From Parasphingorhabdus flavimaris (GTDB taxonomy: Bacteria; Pseudomonadota; Alphaproteobacteria; Sphingomonadales; Sphingomonadaceae), in the NCBI RefSeq assembly GCF_013371215.1, contig NZ_JABWMH010000002.1:744001-808000 (forward strand): a stretch of 64,000 nucleotides of DNA, given 5' to 3'. Positions 52,284 through 59,970 of the stretch are shown here, piece by piece. Numbering within the stretch: the stretch's first letter is position 1; each line of letters opens with the position of its first letter. The notes below the pieces were generated by a model that was given only the letters and a program-made list of their open reading frames with translations, searched no databases and was not told where the DNA came from. The position numbers were made by a program, and so were the translations under genes.

Positions 52284-52652
52284 TTAGAGGGTATAAGGTA
52301 TTCGGATGCCCGGCATAGCCGCTGGAAAATCCTTTGTATTACGTGTAATTAGAATGCGACCGGATAATTGCGCGGACGCGAGAATTATCGCGTCAACCGT
52401 CTTTAAGCGCTTTCGATCAGATCTCAACAACGCTGCCCGCCGCCCGATTTCTTCATTCACCTCGATTATGGTAAAATAGGATAGAAATCCTTCGGCACGA
52501 TCGCCATCATCCGGCAGCGCACCCGTAACGACTTCAACCCAGGTCAAGCGACTGATATAGCGACGATCGTAACGTTTCAATTCAGCATGAGCCGAGCCAA
52601 CATCATTTAGTGCGTCGATCAATATATTGGAATCAAAGACCGCTTCGCTCAC
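52284..52652 (-). CDS. vapC: PIN-domain toxin VapC
   Basis: 122-residue PIN-fold RNase toxin. The acidic residues of the site are visible: VFDSNILIDAL (D7), WVEVVTG (E39), and the later KTVDAIILASA and NTKDFP aspartates. It overlaps its antitoxin gene by 4 bp (ATGA), the normal vapBC coupling. VapC toxins cut initiator or other tRNAs or rRNA; the target of this one is unknown. It lies between glmU and glmS, and the gap to glmS is 18 bp. Confidence 0.92.
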   Translation of the reverse strand: MSEAVFDSNILIDALNDVGSAHAELKRYDRRYISRLTWVEVVTGALPDDGDRAEGFLSYFTIIEVNEEIGRRAALLRSDRKRLKTVDAIILASAQLSGRILITRNTKDFPAAMPGIRIPYTL

Positions 52653-52969
52653 TTGAGATATCGCTCTGCTTCGCGGTCATCATTTTCGTCGAACAGGTCG
52701 GGGAATTCTTTCCGAACTTCCCAATAGTCGGAATCCCAAGGCCGCGTCCAGGACGCCCGCTCCCTGCGCTGCCAATCAACAGCGTCACCGATATCCGTGC
52801 GGTCTTTCCAGATACCGAAATATTTTTCGATGCCTTGCTTGGATTCCTCCGCACGATAACCGGCCACCGCCTCGCGCAGCAACTGCGCACGCGACTTGCC
52901 CTGCTCCGCCGCCTGCGCGTCGAGCCATTTCACATCGTCTTCGGGAAGATCAGCAAGGATTCGGGTCAT
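52649..52969 (-). CDS. vapB: Ribbon-helix-helix antitoxin (VapB-like)
   Basis: 106 residues. The N-terminal part (about 1-45) MTRILADLPEDDVKWLDAQAA then GKSRAQLLREAVAGY is a ribbon-helix-helix DNA-binding unit of the CopG/Arc type. The C-terminal acidic and tryptophan-rich part (WTRPWDSDYWEVRKEFPDLFDE) should wrap the toxin. The paired TGATATCA palindromes just upstream are the expected autoregulatory operator. Coupled to vapC downstream. Confidence 0.9.
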   Translation of the reverse strand: MTRILADLPEDDVKWLDAQAAEQGKSRAQLLREAVAGYRAEESKQGIEKYFGIWKDRTDIGDAVDWQRRERASWTRPWDSDYWEVRKEFPDLFDENDDREAERYLK

Positions 52970-54568: not shown

Positions 54569-55603
54569 TCAATTCGATGGTTTTCCGCCTTTGCGCCATT
54601 TGGTCCACAAATGGCGGGCGAGCATCAGCGGCGGCATCCGCAGCCAGTGCGAGCGGACATAAAAGGCAAAGCGGGTAAACTTGCGGGTTTCGCGACCATA
54701 TCCGTCGCGAGCGAGCAAGCGGCGGACATAGAAACTATCGGAGACAATTGTTTCGTCCGGGCGAGATTCATCCAGCGGCGTCCCATATAGGCGATTGGAC
54801 AGGCGCAATGCCCTGGCCAGTTCAGCGCACAATCCGTGAATCTGGGCGCGGCGATGCAGTTCAGCCCAGAAATTTTTGTTCTCGGCGGAAAAATGCCCGA
54901 GCAAAAGGTTGATATCCCACAGGTTCCGGAGCCCGCCCGCCAGATCGCCGTCTGCAAATAAATGGGCAATCGAATGGAGGACCATGTCGGCAGGTGCCAT
55001 GACATAAAGACCGTTCTCCAACCGGACAGCATCGTTCAATATGGCATCCGCATCCGGTCTGGGACCGGCGGTCAGCGGCAAGATCGTGTGGTGGACGTCG
55101 ATCATCCGGTCGCGCTCGCGATGGATCAGCGGCGGCAGTTCGTGCATATGTTCGCGATAATATTGATCATCATAGGGGTCAGGCTTCACCCATTCCCACC
55201 CCGCATCGAGCAATGCGGCCTCAACGACCGGAAGATCTTCGCGCGGCACCATTATATCCAGGTCGCCGATACTCCGGCCGACGCCGGCGGCGAGATTGGC
55301 CGCGACATAAGCGGTTCCCTTCATCAGCACGATCTTGCCGGAACAATCCGCCAAGGCCCGCCGGGCGCAATCGGCCTCCCATAAGGCCTGCTGGCGCGCC
55401 AGATCATGCGCCTCGATCGCATCCTGCAGAACGGCGCGTGCACGATCCGGCACCGTCATATCCCGCACCCGATGCGCGAGCGAACCTATCAGCGATTCGG
55501 CGCGGGCGATGCTGATCAATTCGGTCCACTGCCCGCTGTCGAGCGTCTCGACGCTCGACGGATCGCGCAGGGCCTTTATCAAAAGCCGGGCGTCGCGCAT
55601 CAT
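54569..55603 (-). CDS. NTP_transf_5-type nucleotidyltransferase of the HprK-related cassette
   Basis: 344 residues from the ATG at 55603, which overlaps the stop of the kinase gene; an in-frame ATG at 55618 is an alternative. The nucleotidyltransferase core is IVLMKGTAYVAANLAAG followed by SIGDLDIMVP (about 111-120, the D-x-D metal pair), with a later MIDVHHTI. The C-terminal half is helical. I match it to PF14907. Members of this family tailor phosphorylated lasso peptides, and others occur in HPr-rel-A cassettes. The acceptor here is unknown. Last gene of the four-gene cassette. Confidence 0.85.
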   Translation of the reverse strand: MMRDARLLIKALRDPSSVETLDSGQWTELISIARAESLIGSLAHRVRDMTVPDRARAVLQDAIEAHDLARQQALWEADCARRALADCSGKIVLMKGTAYVAANLAAGVGRSIGDLDIMVPREDLPVVEAALLDAGWEWVKPDPYDDQYYREHMHELPPLIHRERDRMIDVHHTILPLTAGPRPDADAILNDAVRLENGLYVMAPADMVLHSIAHLFADGDLAGGLRNLWDINLLLGHFSAENKNFWAELHRRAQIHGLCAELARALRLSNRLYGTPLDESRPDETIVSDSFYVRRLLARDGYGRETRKFTRFAFYVRSHWLRMPPLMLARHLWTKWRKGGKPSN

Positions 55604-56469
55604 GGCAATCGGCTCCACAATTCGCCGATCATCTGTTCGGCCTGATCGGTCGATTGATAGTCCATGGCCTTGACCGGGACCTGATCGACGAAACGGGTCA
55701 GCGCGTGAAAGCCCGCCTCGCCCAGCGCCACATAATTTGTCGACGCCTGGGTCAGCCTGACGAAGACCTCCGATTTGCCCATTTCCCGCAATTCCGGCGC
55801 ATGGCCGAATCTGGGAAAGAGCAGTAATGCCGGTCTGGCAGGCGCGTCCATCCGTTCTACCGCGGCTTTGGGCGGAACCAGATGGCGAATATCGCCTTTC
55901 GGCGTCGTCTTCATCTCCGGACCGAAACGGGTTTCGGCAGCAACCTTCTGCATCGCACCGATTGCCTCGTTTTTCAGACTGATCAGGCGTGGAAAGGGAG
56001 AGATTTGACCAGAATCGAGACTTAAAAGCGCAAATTCGTCACCCATGAAGCGCCAGCCTCGCTCGGCCAGCATTGCCGACAAGGTCGACTTGCCTGACCC
56101 GGAAAGACCGGTCATGACCAGCGCCTTGCCGTCTTTCTCGACGCTGCTGGCATGGAGCAGCAAATGCCGCCGCCAGCCCAGCGCCATTTGCAGGTTCATC
56201 CCCATTTCGGCGGCCAGCAGTCCCTGTTTGAGCGGCAAGGGCGCGGCATCCGGCAGCCAGAAATCGCCCCCGATATGCACGGACGGCCGGATGAAGCGGC
56301 GCCACGGTTTTTCCGGCTCGAGACGGACGGTAAAATCAACGCTTTGATCGGCTGGTGCCGGATAGGCGTTATACAGCGCAGCCAGTTGATCCAGCGGCTC
56401 CCGCCAGGTCGAGGCGATCCGGAAAGCAGCGGGACCGATTTTCAGCAGGATCTGGTGCATCTCCCCCAT
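55600..56469 (-). CDS. HprK-related P-loop kinase (HPr-rel-A type)
   Basis: 289 residues. The C-terminal half resembles HPr kinase/phosphorylase: LLLHASSV (HAS at 106-108), P-loop GLSGSGKST (121-129), FMGDEFALLS with the Asp/Glu pair (144-145). The N-terminal 100 residues are specific to this subgroup. Classic PTS-HPr kinases have a different N-terminal domain and a K2 loop signature, which I do not see. Related kinases phosphorylate the C-terminal serine of lasso peptides. The gene overlaps the PqqD-like and nucleotidyltransferase genes (both TGATG), so the three are translated together. Confidence 0.87.
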   Translation of the reverse strand: MGEMHQILLKIGPAAFRIASTWREPLDQLAALYNAYPAPADQSVDFTVRLEPEKPWRRFIRPSVHIGGDFWLPDAAPLPLKQGLLAAEMGMNLQMALGWRRHLLLHASSVEKDGKALVMTGLSGSGKSTLSAMLAERGWRFMGDEFALLSLDSGQISPFPRLISLKNEAIGAMQKVAAETRFGPEMKTTPKGDIRHLVPPKAAVERMDAPARPALLLFPRFGHAPELREMGKSEVFVRLTQASTNYVALGEAGFHALTRFVDQVPVKAMDYQSTDQAEQMIGELWSRLP

Positions 56470-56753
56470 CAGCCCGCAACCCGCGCCACAAGGCCCAGTC
56501 CGGAAAGCTCTTCCAGACGGGCAAGAACAATATCTTCGGAATCGATATCGGCTTCGATTTCATATGTCACGGTCAGCCGCGCCGCTATTTGCGCAGCGGT
56601 CAGCGAAAGTCCTGCCATGACTTCCAATATTGCCGGTGCGGGATCGGCCAGCATATGGGTGATCCCGGACGTTCGATGATAGAGCAAAGTCATGCTGTCC
56701 AGCTCGTGCCAGATTAGATCATCTTGCGCCGCAGCCCGATATTTCTGGGTCAT
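56469..56753 (-). CDS. PqqD-like peptide-binding protein of the HprK-related cassette
   Basis: 94 residues with the winged-helix PqqD pattern: WHELDSMTLLYHRTSGITHMLADPAPAILEVM and a C-terminal two-helix unit ending LSGLGLVARV. PqqD domains are RiPP recognition elements that hold a leader peptide for modifying enzymes. In the HPr-rel-A families a PqqD clade is regularly found next to the kinase, which fits. It has its own ATG and overlaps the kinase start. The peptide partner is not known. Confidence 0.85.
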   Translation of the reverse strand: MTQKYRAAAQDDLIWHELDSMTLLYHRTSGITHMLADPAPAILEVMAGLSLTAAQIAARLTVTYEIEADIDSEDIVLARLEELSGLGLVARVAG

Positions 56754-56821
56754 GATATTCTACCTGCGGTTCCGGGACGACATGACAGTCCCCTAGCAGG
56801 CAAATGTTAAAATTGGGAATA

Positions 56822-57253
56822 TCAGCGCGGCATTTGCAGCGAGGCGTAGCAGGTAAACCCGCTTTGTCCGGATTGCAGCCTGCGGATATAATTCACATAA
56901 GCTTCCGACTGGTCGCGGGACGTGCCCGGCAGCGAGCGCCCGTTCATCGCCCGACGGACTTCTTCACCGGTAAAGTTGCGCCCCGCTGGCGGGTAGGCGC
57001 CAGGCGTATCGGAAGGAACAACCTTGCCGTCTGCAGCAATATAGCCGCCCGAAGCATGATTACCCGGCACTGGAATCTCGCAATTGAGAACTGACCCGGC
57101 GGTTTGCGCCAGGGCCGGCTTGATACTGACCACCGCAGAAGCGGTGACGGCGCCCATCATCAAGGCGCGCCGACGGTTTACGATGCCCTTGTTCAGATCG
57201 CTTTCAGCCGTTGGTCCGGATGGAAGGTCATCAGTCATCGAATTTCTATCCAT
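56822..57253 (-). CDS. Tat-exported small protein upstream of the PqqD/HprK genes
   Basis: 143 residues. A twin-arginine signal is at about 27-50 (NRRRALMMGAVTASAVVSI, then ALAQ), preceded by an unusually long hydrophilic n-region of 25 residues. The mature part is about 94 residues with two cysteines (C58, and one near 135 in FTCYASL), a GGYIAADGKVVPSDTPGAYPPAGR stretch rich in Gly and Pro, and a helical RDQSEAYVNYIRRLQSG. No family is recognised. It lies 68 bp upstream of the PqqD-like gene in the same direction and may be the substrate or a partner. Alternative start at 57238. Confidence 0.72.
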   Translation of the reverse strand: MDRNSMTDDLPSGPTAESDLNKGIVNRRRALMMGAVTASAVVSIKPALAQTAGSVLNCEIPVPGNHASGGYIAADGKVVPSDTPGAYPPAGRNFTGEEVRRAMNGRSLPGTSRDQSEAYVNYIRRLQSGQSGFTCYASLQMPR

Positions 57254-57472: not shown

Positions 57473-58735
57473 ATGACCTCAATCTCTCCCGTTCGCCTGT
57501 TTGTGGCTTTGTCGTTCATCGTCGGTGGCGCGATATTGGCCAGTCTGCTGTCGCAATCCGGACAACAGTTGATGATAGTCATCGCCACCGGCGCATTGGC
57601 ATTGTTTACGGTATCCCAGGCGCCGCCAGTCGCACCATTGCCGGACCCGGCGACACTCGATCGGCAACGCGATCAAATTCTCAATCAAGGCCGGTGGGAA
57701 GCCTATCGCGAAATGATAGATCCAATCACGGATCCGATATTGCTTGTCCAAAACGCCCGGGTTGCTGCGGCCAATCCGGCAGCGACGAAGATTCTCGGCA
57801 ATCATATCCTCGGGGAAGATGTGCGAATTGCCATTCGCCATCCTGCTGCGGCCGATCGCCTCGCCAACCCCGATGCAAAACATAGCGGAGAACCGATATT
57901 GCTGGTTGGTGTAGGAAGTGCGGACCAACGCTGGGAATTGCGGATTCATGCGTTGCGGCAAGGCCTGAAGCTGGTCCAGATGTCTGATCGCAGCAGCCGT
58001 CATGCAGCCGAGCGGATGCGCACCGATTTTGTCGCCAACGCCAGCCACGAATTGCGCACCCCGCTTGCAGCGATAAAGGGATTTCTCGAGACGCTGGAAG
58101 ATCCCAAGGCAGGCAAGGACGACGCGACCCGCGCACGGTTTCTCAAGATAATGTATGATGAAGCCGACCGTATGCAGCGTCTGATCGAGGATCTGATGTC
58201 GCTTTCCCGGATCGAGGCCGAAAAATTCGAACTGCCTTCCGATAAAATCGACATCAGCCATCTGGTCAGCGAAGCGCGGGATTTTTTCATCAACAATCGA
58301 GGAAAGAAAGATAAGGATATAAAGGTCACTCTTCCAACCGACATTCCCAGGATTTACGGAGATCACGCGCAACTGGCCCAGGTATTGAACAATTTGCTCA
58401 GCAATGCCTTCAAATATGGAAGAAAGGGAGCTCCGGTGCGGATCGATGTTGCACCCAATCGAGCCGGAACCATGTTATGCCTTTCGGTCAGTGACGAAGG
58501 CGACGGTATTGCGCCGGAACATATCCCCCGACTCACCGAACGATTCTATCGCGTCGACAAGGGACGCAGCAAATCCATCGGCGGGACGGGTCTCGGGCTT
58601 GCTATCGTCAAACATATTTCCGAACGGCACGGCGGGCGGATGGAAATAACCAGCGAAGTCGGAAAAGGCACGACGGTATCCGTATTGTTGCCGATCGCGA
58701 CCAAAGCCCCAACGCGCACCGATACCGCAAGCTGA
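57473..58735 (+). CDS. phoR: Phosphate regulon sensor kinase PhoR
   Basis: 420-residue membrane kinase. Two N-terminal helices (about 8-27 and 32-50) sit before a PAS-like domain (about 75-170). HisKA has NASHELRTPLAAIKGFLETLEDP (H192), and the HATPase shows DEGDGIAPEHIPRLTERFYRVDKGRSK and GGTGLGLAIVKHI. It stands directly before the pst genes, the usual place for PhoR in alphaproteobacteria. Its partner phoB is not in the window and may lie downstream of phoU. Confidence 0.92.
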   Translation: MTSISPVRLFVALSFIVGGAILASLLSQSGQQLMIVIATGALALFTVSQAPPVAPLPDPATLDRQRDQILNQGRWEAYREMIDPITDPILLVQNARVAAANPAATKILGNHILGEDVRIAIRHPAAADRLANPDAKHSGEPILLVGVGSADQRWELRIHALRQGLKLVQMSDRSSRHAAERMRTDFVANASHELRTPLAAIKGFLETLEDPKAGKDDATRARFLKIMYDEADRMQRLIEDLMSLSRIEAEKFELPSDKIDISHLVSEARDFFINNRGKKDKDIKVTLPTDIPRIYGDHAQLAQVLNNLLSNAFKYGRKGAPVRIDVAPNRAGTMLCLSVSDEGDGIAPEHIPRLTERFYRVDKGRSKSIGGTGLGLAIVKHISERHGGRMEITSEVGKGTTVSVLLPIATKAPTRTDTAS

Positions 58736-58791
58736 GCAAAACAAAACCTGGGTCCGACCGAAACCGTTGCGGGACAAAGCACAATTGTTCG

Positions 58792-58820
58792 CTGTCACAT
58801 ATCCGTAATATATCTGTCAT
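58792..58820 (+). promoter_or_regulatory. PHO box upstream of pstS
   Basis: Three 7-bp units with 11-bp period: CTGTCAC (58792-58798), CCGTAAT (58803-58809), CTGTCAT (58814-58820), each separated by ATAT. The PhoB consensus is CTGTCAT with 4-bp spacers. It lies about 107 bp before the pstS ATG, as expected for a phosphate-starvation promoter. Confidence 0.85.
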
Positions 58821-58926
58821 ACCCAAGACATTGCTGCCGCTTAGAGGCCTCCACAACACGCCTGTTAATCCGATGCTTGGCAAGGCCAGCCATCGTTAGG
58901 AAATTAATGATTTTGGAGATTTGTCA

Positions 58927-59970
58927 ATGTTAAGAAAACTCACTTTTCTGACCATCGCTTCGCTTGCAGCAACCGGTTGTCAGGATCAGGCTTCCGGTGG
59001 TCAAGGCGGTACCCGCAGCGAAATTCGGATCGTCGGTTCTTCCACCGTATTCCCTTTTGCAAAAGCGGTTGCCGAACAATTCAGCATCAACGGGGCAAAT
59101 CCTTCTCCCATTCTTGAATCCACCGGTACCGGCGGCGGCATGAGCCTTTTCTGCGCCGGTGTTGGCGCGGGCACGCCCGATATCGAAAATGCGTCTCGCC
59201 GGATCAAACCAACCGAGCTGGAATTGTGCCAGACCAATGGCGTGACCGACGTTGTCGAAATTCAAATTGGCATCGACGGCATCGCTGTTGCTCAGGCGAA
59301 TGAGGGTACCGCATTTTCATTGACCCCGGTTCAGATATACAAGGCTATTGCAGACCGTCCGTTCGGCGAGAAAAATACAGCGAAAAAATGGTCTGACATT
59401 GATCCAAGCCTGCCAAATTTCGCAATCAGCGTTTACGGCCCGCCATCCACCTCGGGAACGCGCGATGCACTCACAGAGCTGATTATGGAAGTCGGTTGCG
59501 TAACGGATTCGGCAACAAAGGCACTCAAGGACAGCGACAAGGACGAATTTGAATCGATCTGCCATGACGTCCGAGCCGATGGCGCCTATATCGATGCCGG
59601 CGAGAATGACAATCTCATCGTACAGAAACTGAAAGCCAATCCGAATAGCGTCGGTATTTTCGGCTACAGCTTCCTCGAAGCCAATCTCGACAGCGTTCGC
59701 GGCATTCCGGTATCCGGCGTGAACCCAACGTATGAAGCCATTGCTTCGGGAGAATATCCGGGTGCTCGTCCGCTTTATATCTACGTGAAAAAGCAGCATG
59801 TCGGCGTGATACCTGGCCTGAGCGAATATGTTCAGGAATTCGTCAATGCCGGAACCCGTGACGGCTATCTGGTAAAGGCCGGACTTATCGCGTCTCCCGA
59901 TTCGGTAAGAGCGAAGATGAGCGAAGTTGTCCGTGACATGACGCCGCTCAAGCCTAGCGAACTCAAATAA
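58927..59970 (+). CDS. pstS: Phosphate ABC transporter substrate-binding protein
   Basis: 347-residue periplasmic phosphate receptor. The ATG at 58927 has GGAG eight bases upstream; a TTG at 58921 is less likely. The signal ends in a lipobox-like AATGC (C18), so it is probably lipidated. Phosphate-binding loops are GSSTVFPFA, ESTGTGGGMSLFCAG and PPSTSGTRDAL. It follows the PHO box and starts the pstSCAB-phoU operon. Confidence 0.95.
   Translation: MLRKLTFLTIASLAATGCQDQASGGQGGTRSEIRIVGSSTVFPFAKAVAEQFSINGANPSPILESTGTGGGMSLFCAGVGAGTPDIENASRRIKPTELELCQTNGVTDVVEIQIGIDGIAVAQANEGTAFSLTPVQIYKAIADRPFGEKNTAKKWSDIDPSLPNFAISVYGPPSTSGTRDALTELIMEVGCVTDSATKALKDSDKDEFESICHDVRADGAYIDAGENDNLIVQKLKANPNSVGIFGYSFLEANLDSVRGIPVSGVNPTYEAIASGEYPGARPLYIYVKKQHVGVIPGLSEYVQEFVNAGTRDGYLVKAGLIASPDSVRAKMSEVVRDMTPLKPSELK

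Follow-up and report, generated by a model that had tools for sequence, protein, structure and literature searches.

A Tat-signal protein as candidate substrate of an HPr-rel-A kinase and nucleotidyltransferase set in Parasphingorhabdus flavimaris

HprK-like and PqqD-like proteins occur together in the SynChlorMet cassette, as ScmC (TIGR04249) and ScmD (TIGR04248), respectively. An annotated Sphingomonas plasmid bears the names of the first two HPr-rel-A families, the PqqD-like protein and HprK-related kinase A, beside a nucleotidyltransferase family protein. No paper was found in an open-access library under the names HPr-rel-A and HprK-related kinase or the family accessions, searches with motif strings gave two unrelated papers only, and none was apparent from the listings when the set was combined with lasso peptide, PqqD, exosortase, Tat or RiPP recognition element. 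According to the review PMC9266682, on lasso-peptide tailoring, the paeninodin and pseudomycoidin clusters have a kinase, the latter also a nucleotidyltransferase; a PadeK/PsmK-type kinase acts on a C-terminal Ser, and the nucleotidyltransferase homologue PsmN then adds hexoses.

The window analysed here is a 64,000-nucleotide stretch of contig NZ_JABWMH010000002.1 of P. flavimaris. Four genes in one direction had been described in it by a first-pass annotation, and ORF listing of 54569-57253 recovered all four on the minus strand at the coordinates given beforehand:

56822..57253, minus strand: Tat-signal protein, candidate substrate, 143 aa; likely start Met6 at 57238
56469..56753, minus strand: PqqD-like protein, HPr-rel-A system, 94 aa; TIGR04353, 46.5 bits (cut-off 35)
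55600..56469, minus strand: HprK-related kinase A, 289 aa; TIGR04352, 250.3 bits (cut-off 200)
54569..55618, minus strand: NTP_transf_5 nucleotidyltransferase-fold enzyme, 349 aa; start perhaps Met6 (55603) or Met7 (55600)

The TGATG overlaps claimed for the last three genes held at the PqqD/kinase junction (56471-56467), while the kinase/nucleotidyltransferase junction has this form only if the latter starts at Met7 (55600); an ATG start at Met6 (55603) makes it ATGA, and the longest ORF starts with GTG at 55618. A scan for promoters and terminators gave one of each, below the 1.6 and 3.0 of shuffled sequence, and was set aside.

In profile searches the nucleotidyltransferase scored 157.3 bits with PF14907 (cut-off 31.2, E 6.6e-46). 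Because TIGR04353, TIGR04352 and PF14907 all exceeded their cut-offs, the locus is a genuine HPr-rel-A set, with a TIGR04352 kinase, a TIGR04353 PqqD and an adjoining PF14907 gene in the order of that system; the first-pass assignment was correct, and among the models it had named for checking only PF05402 stayed below its cut-off (20.5 vs. 23.4 bits). The set is widespread, as judged from the kinase: in a sample of 398 genomes of the phylum, 61 had one above the cut-off. Unlike the HPr-rel-A system as described by the NCBIfam names shown, which mention no Tat-exported partner, it has a near-constant fourth component. The likeness to SynChlorMet was slight, as the window kinase against ScmC and the PqqD of another locus (L109) against ScmD, the only two components compared, gave weak scores far below the cut-offs. 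As in lasso-peptide tailoring by PadeK, PsmK and PsmN, the locus has a kinase and a nucleotidyltransferase homologue, but the substrate proposed for it carries a Tat leader, in most cases has the size of a small protein, and does not end at the motif Ser.

The putative active sites of the two enzymes were well conserved:

56083..56109, minus strand: kinase P-loop GLSGSGKST, residues 121-129; G124, G126, K127 and T129 in 68/68 kinases, S128 in 66/68
56035..56040, minus strand: kinase D144-E145, kept in 68/68 kinases
55256..55264, minus strand: nucleotidyltransferase D119-L-D121, in 30/30 sequences
55097..55099, minus strand: nucleotidyltransferase D174, in 30/30 sequences

We take D144-E145 to be placed like the Asp-Asp pair of HprK, and D119-L-D121 presumably corresponds to the catalytic residues of the nucleotidyltransferase fold, of which D174 is likely the third carboxylate. 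The nucleotidyltransferase model (pLDDT 90) had nucleotidyltransferase-fold proteins as Foldseek neighbours, none at E<=0.001. By sequence, the kinase gave 11 weak matches to solved structures, the best being UvrA excinuclease (E 8e-4), and HprK entries appeared only at E 0.5-0.6.

At E<=1, neither NCBIfam nor Pfam had a model that fits the Tat-signal protein (56822-57253). Its twin-arginine stretch is NRRRALMMGAVTASAVVSIKPALA, with the first Arg at residue 27, and translation more likely starts at Met6 (57238) than at the ORF start, since Met6 is conserved in 96% of 80 aligned rows. Two segments bear on its possible role:

57107..57175, minus strand: twin-arginine leader, residues 27-49, RRRALMMGAVTASAVVSIKPALA; leader core common to 46/58 non-redundant relatives
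56837..56854, minus strand: C-terminal motif TCYASL, residues 134-139; T134, C135 and S138 invariant, motif class also in distant relatives

The RRRALM signal and a TatC in the genome (E 6.8e-74) predict that the protein is a Tat substrate. In the window's family, S54, C58, T83, T134 and C135 were no less conserved than S138, and the extension upstream of RR, a possible PqqD site, was poorly conserved in the 80-row alignment. The tail is nearly invariant yet was modelled at low confidence, which may reflect a shallow alignment; because the mean pLDDT of the model was 63.5 and the best Foldseek match had an E of 2.9, the fold was left uninterpreted. Eight distant Tat proteins matched no family above cut-off, the weak matches being Glutenin_hmw (0.0018), formate_TAT (0.016), TAT_signal_seq (0.029) and SepX (0.04), and three further relatives, two of them short, matched none at E<=0.01.

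A lack of co-conservation of the four genes had been named beforehand as refuting, but the fourth gene proved to be co-conserved. The neighbourhood survey, proposed to look for a conserved fourth gene, placed the Tat gene beside the three enzyme genes at 79 of the 80 Sphingomonadales loci, with the single exception on a contig that begins within the kinase. At one threshold, the Tat protein was detected in 42/45 kinase-positive vs. 0/104 kinase-negative Sphingomonadaceae (p 6e-34 by a Fisher test that makes no correction for kinship), and each of the three misses has a copy close to the kinase that is diverged, cut by the contig end or ends early. The Tat gene was even kept where it is unlinked from the kinase, in three genomes, in one of which PqqD adjoins it. 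Among 40 distant stretches, reading placed a Tat ORF beside the kinase in 37, in 30 of the 31 distant stretches outside the window's order and in all 29 loci of one class (that of G019), one of them cut before its RR, while a strict script found it in 29/40 distant stretches vs. 5/165 control windows. None was seen in one locus (L128, G081) or in two (L101, L108) among 30 short loci. A Vibrio alfacsensis plasmid also pairs the kinase with a Tat-signal protein, its PqqD-sized ORF giving no TIGR04353 match at E<=0.01. The profiles, which had been trained on Sphingomonadales, failed to pick up the nucleotidyltransferase in 5 of the 40 stretches and PqqD in 11, so that not every stretch can be credited with all four genes. 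These gene neighbourhoods showed the predicted Tat-signal protein to be a near-constant partner of the three enzymes, and the comparative data make it the best candidate for the target that the first-pass annotation had left unnamed.

Short Ser motifs recurred among the Tat proteins. When 82 mature parts were grouped at a 50% identity limit, 58 non-redundant proteins remained, of which 22 bore the C-terminal motif, 28 a motif at the mature N-terminus, 8 neither and 0 both. The two motifs, which may be unrelated to each other, thus covered 50/58 proteins, compared with shuffle averages of 0.1 (C-terminal) and 0.5 (N-terminal), and the leader core occurred in 46/58 vs. a shuffle mean of 3.2, figures that overstate the significance because both kinds of pattern, motif and leader, were drawn up from sequences already inspected. 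The motif class changed once on the kinase tree vs. 15 or more times in shuffles, which ignore relatedness. Two precursors are only 74 and 82 aa long, with mature parts of roughly 12-20 aa. A shared leader and a variable core encoded beside the enzymes, as in RiPP-type systems, were found with these post hoc patterns.

These data are consistent with the four genes together making and exporting one modified protein. The PqqD-like protein would bind the Tat protein, with the leader as the probable site, and present it to the enzymes; the HprK-related kinase would phosphorylate the motif Ser, that is, Ser138 in the window and the serines of S-x-N-x-S in the other class; and the NTP_transf_5 enzyme would then add a hexose or nucleotide cap to the Ser-phosphate, in the way that PsmN follows PsmK in the tailoring of pseudomycoidin. 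The Tat pathway would export the finished protein with cleavage of the leader, so that the product would act outside the cytoplasm, possibly with XrtA-type exopolysaccharide. For near-constant partnership, PqqD binding and presentation, and phosphorylation of the motif Ser taken jointly, we estimate a probability of about 0.5. The Tat protein is probably the dedicated substrate of the enzymes; if it is, the kinase likely acts on the motif Ser, and, given both, capping by the nucleotidyltransferase is the somewhat favoured outcome, the order of phosphorylation before glycosyl or nucleotidyl transfer being one that we infer from the lasso-peptide enzymes. More tentatively, the sets may define a class of ribosomal products that is new in being both tailored and exported under one peptide, the twin-arginine signal serving also as the leader. 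PqqD would guide the kinase and the nucleotidyltransferase-fold enzyme, which would place a phospho-sugar or phospho-nucleotide on the motif Ser; the cores would range from about a dozen residues to 200, and the product would leave by the Tat pathway and, in many lineages, serve an XrtA exopolysaccharide layer.

Unlikely, though the strongest of the alternatives, is that the enzymes modify another target, such as a sugar, a lipid-linked precursor or an exopolysaccharide, with the Tat protein as a periplasmic partner acting downstream on the same product. XrtA/PEP-CTERM exopolysaccharide clusters house several HPr-rel-A sets outside Sphingomonadales, exosortase was present in 32/61 set-positive vs. 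50/337 other genomes, and in Sphingomonadales a GT4 glycosyltransferase gene separates the Tat gene from PqqD at 15 of 79 loci. However, the PqqD family is named as a peptide chaperone, the motif class follows the kinase clade, and Tat proteins of 74 and 82 aa leave little space for an enzymatic role. The neighbourhoods also differ, as the window set is ~290 kb from the genome's exosortase and, like the Sphingomonas plasmid copy, has phosphate-uptake and glmU/glmS genes as listed neighbours, while catabolic and phosphonate genes and no XrtA/PEP-CTERM gene are listed around the Vibrio plasmid copy (the plasmid gene tables being incomplete).

Another alternative is a reversible checkpoint, in which the kinase and PqqD would delay export of the Tat precursor until it has folded or conditions suit, and the exported protein would bear no lasting mark. 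HprK kinases are best known as regulators and the Tat pathway exports folded proteins, both of which would fit, but this reading is improbable, as it leaves the nucleotidyltransferase, with its three carboxylates invariant in 30/30 aligned sequences, without a role. Despite the kinase of the paeninodin- and pseudomycoidin-type clusters and the nucleotidyltransferase of the latter (PMC9266682), a lasso-peptide locus or its remnant was rejected as highly improbable, since the enzymes are partnered by a 143-aa protein with a Tat signal and, in line with the first-pass description of a set lacking both cyclase and leader protease, PF13471 had 0 matches in the whole genome and no asparagine-synthase-like cyclase was noticed, by inspection, among the ORFs listed for 50-61 kb.

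With modification of the Tat protein as the preferred reading, a candidate substrate and a candidate residue make a long-unexplained enzyme set testable by mass spectrometry; if true, the reading describes a pathway that links tailoring to export by Tat and whose precursors can be as short as 74 residues. The link to XrtA exopolysaccharide genes outside Sphingomonadales had not been anticipated by the first-pass annotation.

The set in the window consists of four co-oriented ORFs, all on the minus strand:

56822-57253, minus strand, Tat-signal protein (Tat protein)
56469-56753, minus strand, PqqD-like protein, scoring above the curated TIGR04353 cut-off
55600-56469, minus strand, HprK-related kinase A (kinase), scoring above the curated TIGR04352 cut-off
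54569-55618, minus strand, NTP_transf_5 nucleotidyltransferase, scoring above the curated PF14907 cut-off

The first-pass annotation had assigned the genes to HPr-rel-A, and the scores of the last three bear this out: the window set is a true member of that system. The Tat protein had no match at E ≤ 1 among the Pfam and NCBIfam models. The window's genome carries one kinase above the cut-off as well as TatC; a second, weak HprK-like match was seen at G000:C2:523363-523563 of this genome, about 13 kb from the genome's exosortase gene.

A survey for a conserved fourth gene, which the first-pass annotation had proposed, recovered the Tat gene almost throughout. A contig search with the kinase gave 223 relatives, and the best 80 loci of these, from Sphingomonadales (one given only as Alphaproteobacteria), contained the kinase in 80, PqqD in 79, the Tat protein in 79 and the nucleotidyltransferase in 78. 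The Tat gene was co-directional with the kinase in all 79 loci having it, and a GT4 glycosyltransferase lay between the Tat and PqqD genes in 15 of them; the sole locus without Tat and PqqD (L020) begins within the kinase gene. Among 149 genomes of the window's family, the kinase (E ≤ 1e-30) was found in 45 and the Tat protein (E ≤ 1e-8) in 42, all 42 within the 45 and none among the 104 kinase-negative genomes. As for the three misses, genomes G822 and G834 carry Tat-like ORFs immediately upstream of PqqD, cut at the contig end and diverged, respectively, and G752 (86% complete) carries an early-ending Tat-signal ORF. Genomes G214, G856 and G268 keep a Tat gene though it is distant from the kinase or on a different contig, and in G268 PqqD is located together with the unlinked Tat gene. 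Judged from this conservation, the Tat gene is part of the set.

In a sample of the phylum, the kinase scored above the cut-off in 61 of 398 genomes. From 40 of these, 40 stretches of at most 20 kb were taken, the choice partly favouring long contigs and 9 belonging to the same family or order as the window. By reading, a Tat-signal ORF was found near the kinase in 37 of the 40, while a strict automated test found it in 29 of 40 stretches vs. 5 of 165 control windows. None was read beside the kinase in L128, L140 and L151, and in the genomes of the latter two (G268 and G214, respectively) the Tat gene is located elsewhere; in L126 both the Tat copy and the clustered PqqD are on the opposite strand. 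Profiles trained on Sphingomonadales failed to detect the nucleotidyltransferase in 5 of these stretches and PqqD in 11, some of the 11 showing a PqqD-sized ORF. In L130 a single 706-aa frame holds kinase and nucleotidyltransferase, which are possibly fused. Among 30 short loci from the same search, mostly of the same genomes (L099 and L102 being short forms of L126 and L128), L101 and L108 had no Tat ORF. In the class of genome G019, which we take for Gammaproteobacteria, the kinase was present in 40 of 369 genomes, and 29 of 29 new loci read had a Tat gene, the L183 copy being cut off ahead of the twin arginine. A Vibrio alfacsensis plasmid carries the Tat protein, kinase, nucleotidyltransferase and a PqqD-sized ORF, the last without a TIGR04353 match.

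Tat proteins, which combine an apparently shared leader with mature parts that vary, were compared using 58 non-redundant sequences drawn from 82, namely the window's, 7 of the 80 Sphingomonadales loci, those of L113-L152, L154, 28 of 29 from L156-L184 (L183 dropped) and 8 of 10 from L185-L194, leaving out L109 and the remaining short loci of the phylum search. The leader and both motif patterns were written after the sequences were inspected, so the shuffle comparisons are not independent tests; on this basis, [PS]x[VILMF][VILMFA][TSM]?[TS][LIVA] followed the twin arginine in 46 of 58 (shuffles 3.2, maximum 9), the C-terminal motif [ST][CG][FYWLIN]xS[LFI] occurred within the last 25 residues in 22 (shuffle mean 0.1, maximum 2), and the N-terminal motif S[GADNRK][NHVW]xS within the first 22 mature residues, counted from 28 residues past the twin arginine, in 28 (mean 0.5, maximum 3). 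No protein had both Ser motifs, and 8 had neither. When 73 kinases (35 of the C-terminal class, 30 of the N-terminal class, 8 of neither) are placed on a tree, the motif class switches once, vs. an average of 21.8 and a minimum of 15 for label shuffles, which ignore kinship. Three of the 8 unclassified, L133, L165 and L167, whose kinases cluster with the second C-terminal clade, have the degenerate C-terminal forms YTSI, WASI and GASI, in which the Ser is retained and the Cys gone. Two short precursors, of 74 aa in L178 (ending SACISCNASLI) and 82 aa in L109 (ending TASCLDSFNGL), each adjoin a PqqD above the TIGR04353 cut-off. An [ST]PG[FYW]W element and a HAVAALLNA-like element are further features of many N-terminal-class Tat proteins of L156-L184; the mature domain with these elements matched no family above cut-off when distant Tat proteins were searched.

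Over 80 rows of the window's own Tat family, conservation reaches 93% or more at 12 of the final 13 positions (SGFTCYASLQMPR). In the Tat protein model, residues 71-120 had high confidence (84-92) and the tail blocks low confidence (54 and 44), the latter being weak evidence because the model rests on 39 sequences only. Since S54, C58 and T83 are conserved about as well as Ser138 of the C-terminal motif, Ser138 is preferred without being the sole candidate.

The enzymes of the set look active from their conserved residues. All 68 kinases compared (from 70, after exclusion of two frames of at least 420 aa) have K127, T129, D144, E145, K191 and, as P-loop glycines, G124 and G126; all 30 nucleotidyltransferases compared (from 36, after exclusion of six overlong frames) have D119, D121 and D174. 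Among the solved structures closest to the nucleotidyltransferase model (pLDDT 90) are MenT1 (best E 0.0012), ANT(2'') and LnuA. Presumably PsmN is also a PF14907 member. A review (PMC9266682) reports that in lasso precursors the C-terminal Ser is phosphorylated by PadeK and PsmK, and that PsmN adds one or two hexoses to that Ser-phosphate or perhaps nucleotidylates it first. By analogy, the motif Ser of the Tat protein would be phosphorylated under PqqD guidance, the nucleotidyltransferase-fold enzyme would cap the phosphate, and the finished protein would be exported via Tat. The sequences themselves show the pairing, the leader, the motifs and the conservation of active-site residues; substrate role, modified site, chemistry, order, export and function are inferred. 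The exported partner, the Ser motifs and the minimal precursors appear new, as far as the open-access literature searched can tell.

Recurring neighbour families in the 40 stretches, assigned from one representative each, were TIGR03087 glycosyltransferase, TIGR03108 amidotransferase, TIGR02915 PrsR, TIGR02917 PrsT, TIGR03694 acyltransferase and one just below the TIGR03007 cut-off; they are given without counts because the clustering is loose, the PrsR cluster also taking in other kinase and regulator genes. Of the 61 set-positive genomes, 32 have an exosortase, vs. 50 of the remaining 337 (p 1e-9, with no correction for kinship), and 28 of the 29 set-positive genomes without it are assemblies of at least 40 contigs. 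A trypsin-like (DegP-related) protease family, named from one tested member, is found close to the set in 7 of the 40 stretches (e.g., L116:7332-8120), all outside the window's order, and is possibly a processing enzyme. In the window, glmU and glmS, named by eye and from annotated neighbours, flank a PIN-domain and a ribbon-helix-helix protein (52284-52969, minus strand) that likely form a toxin-antitoxin pair. Divergent from the Tat gene, a histidine kinase and a phosphate-binding-type protein (57473-59970, plus strand), by position PhoR and PstS, recur in 76 and 70 of the 80 Sphingomonadales loci, respectively.
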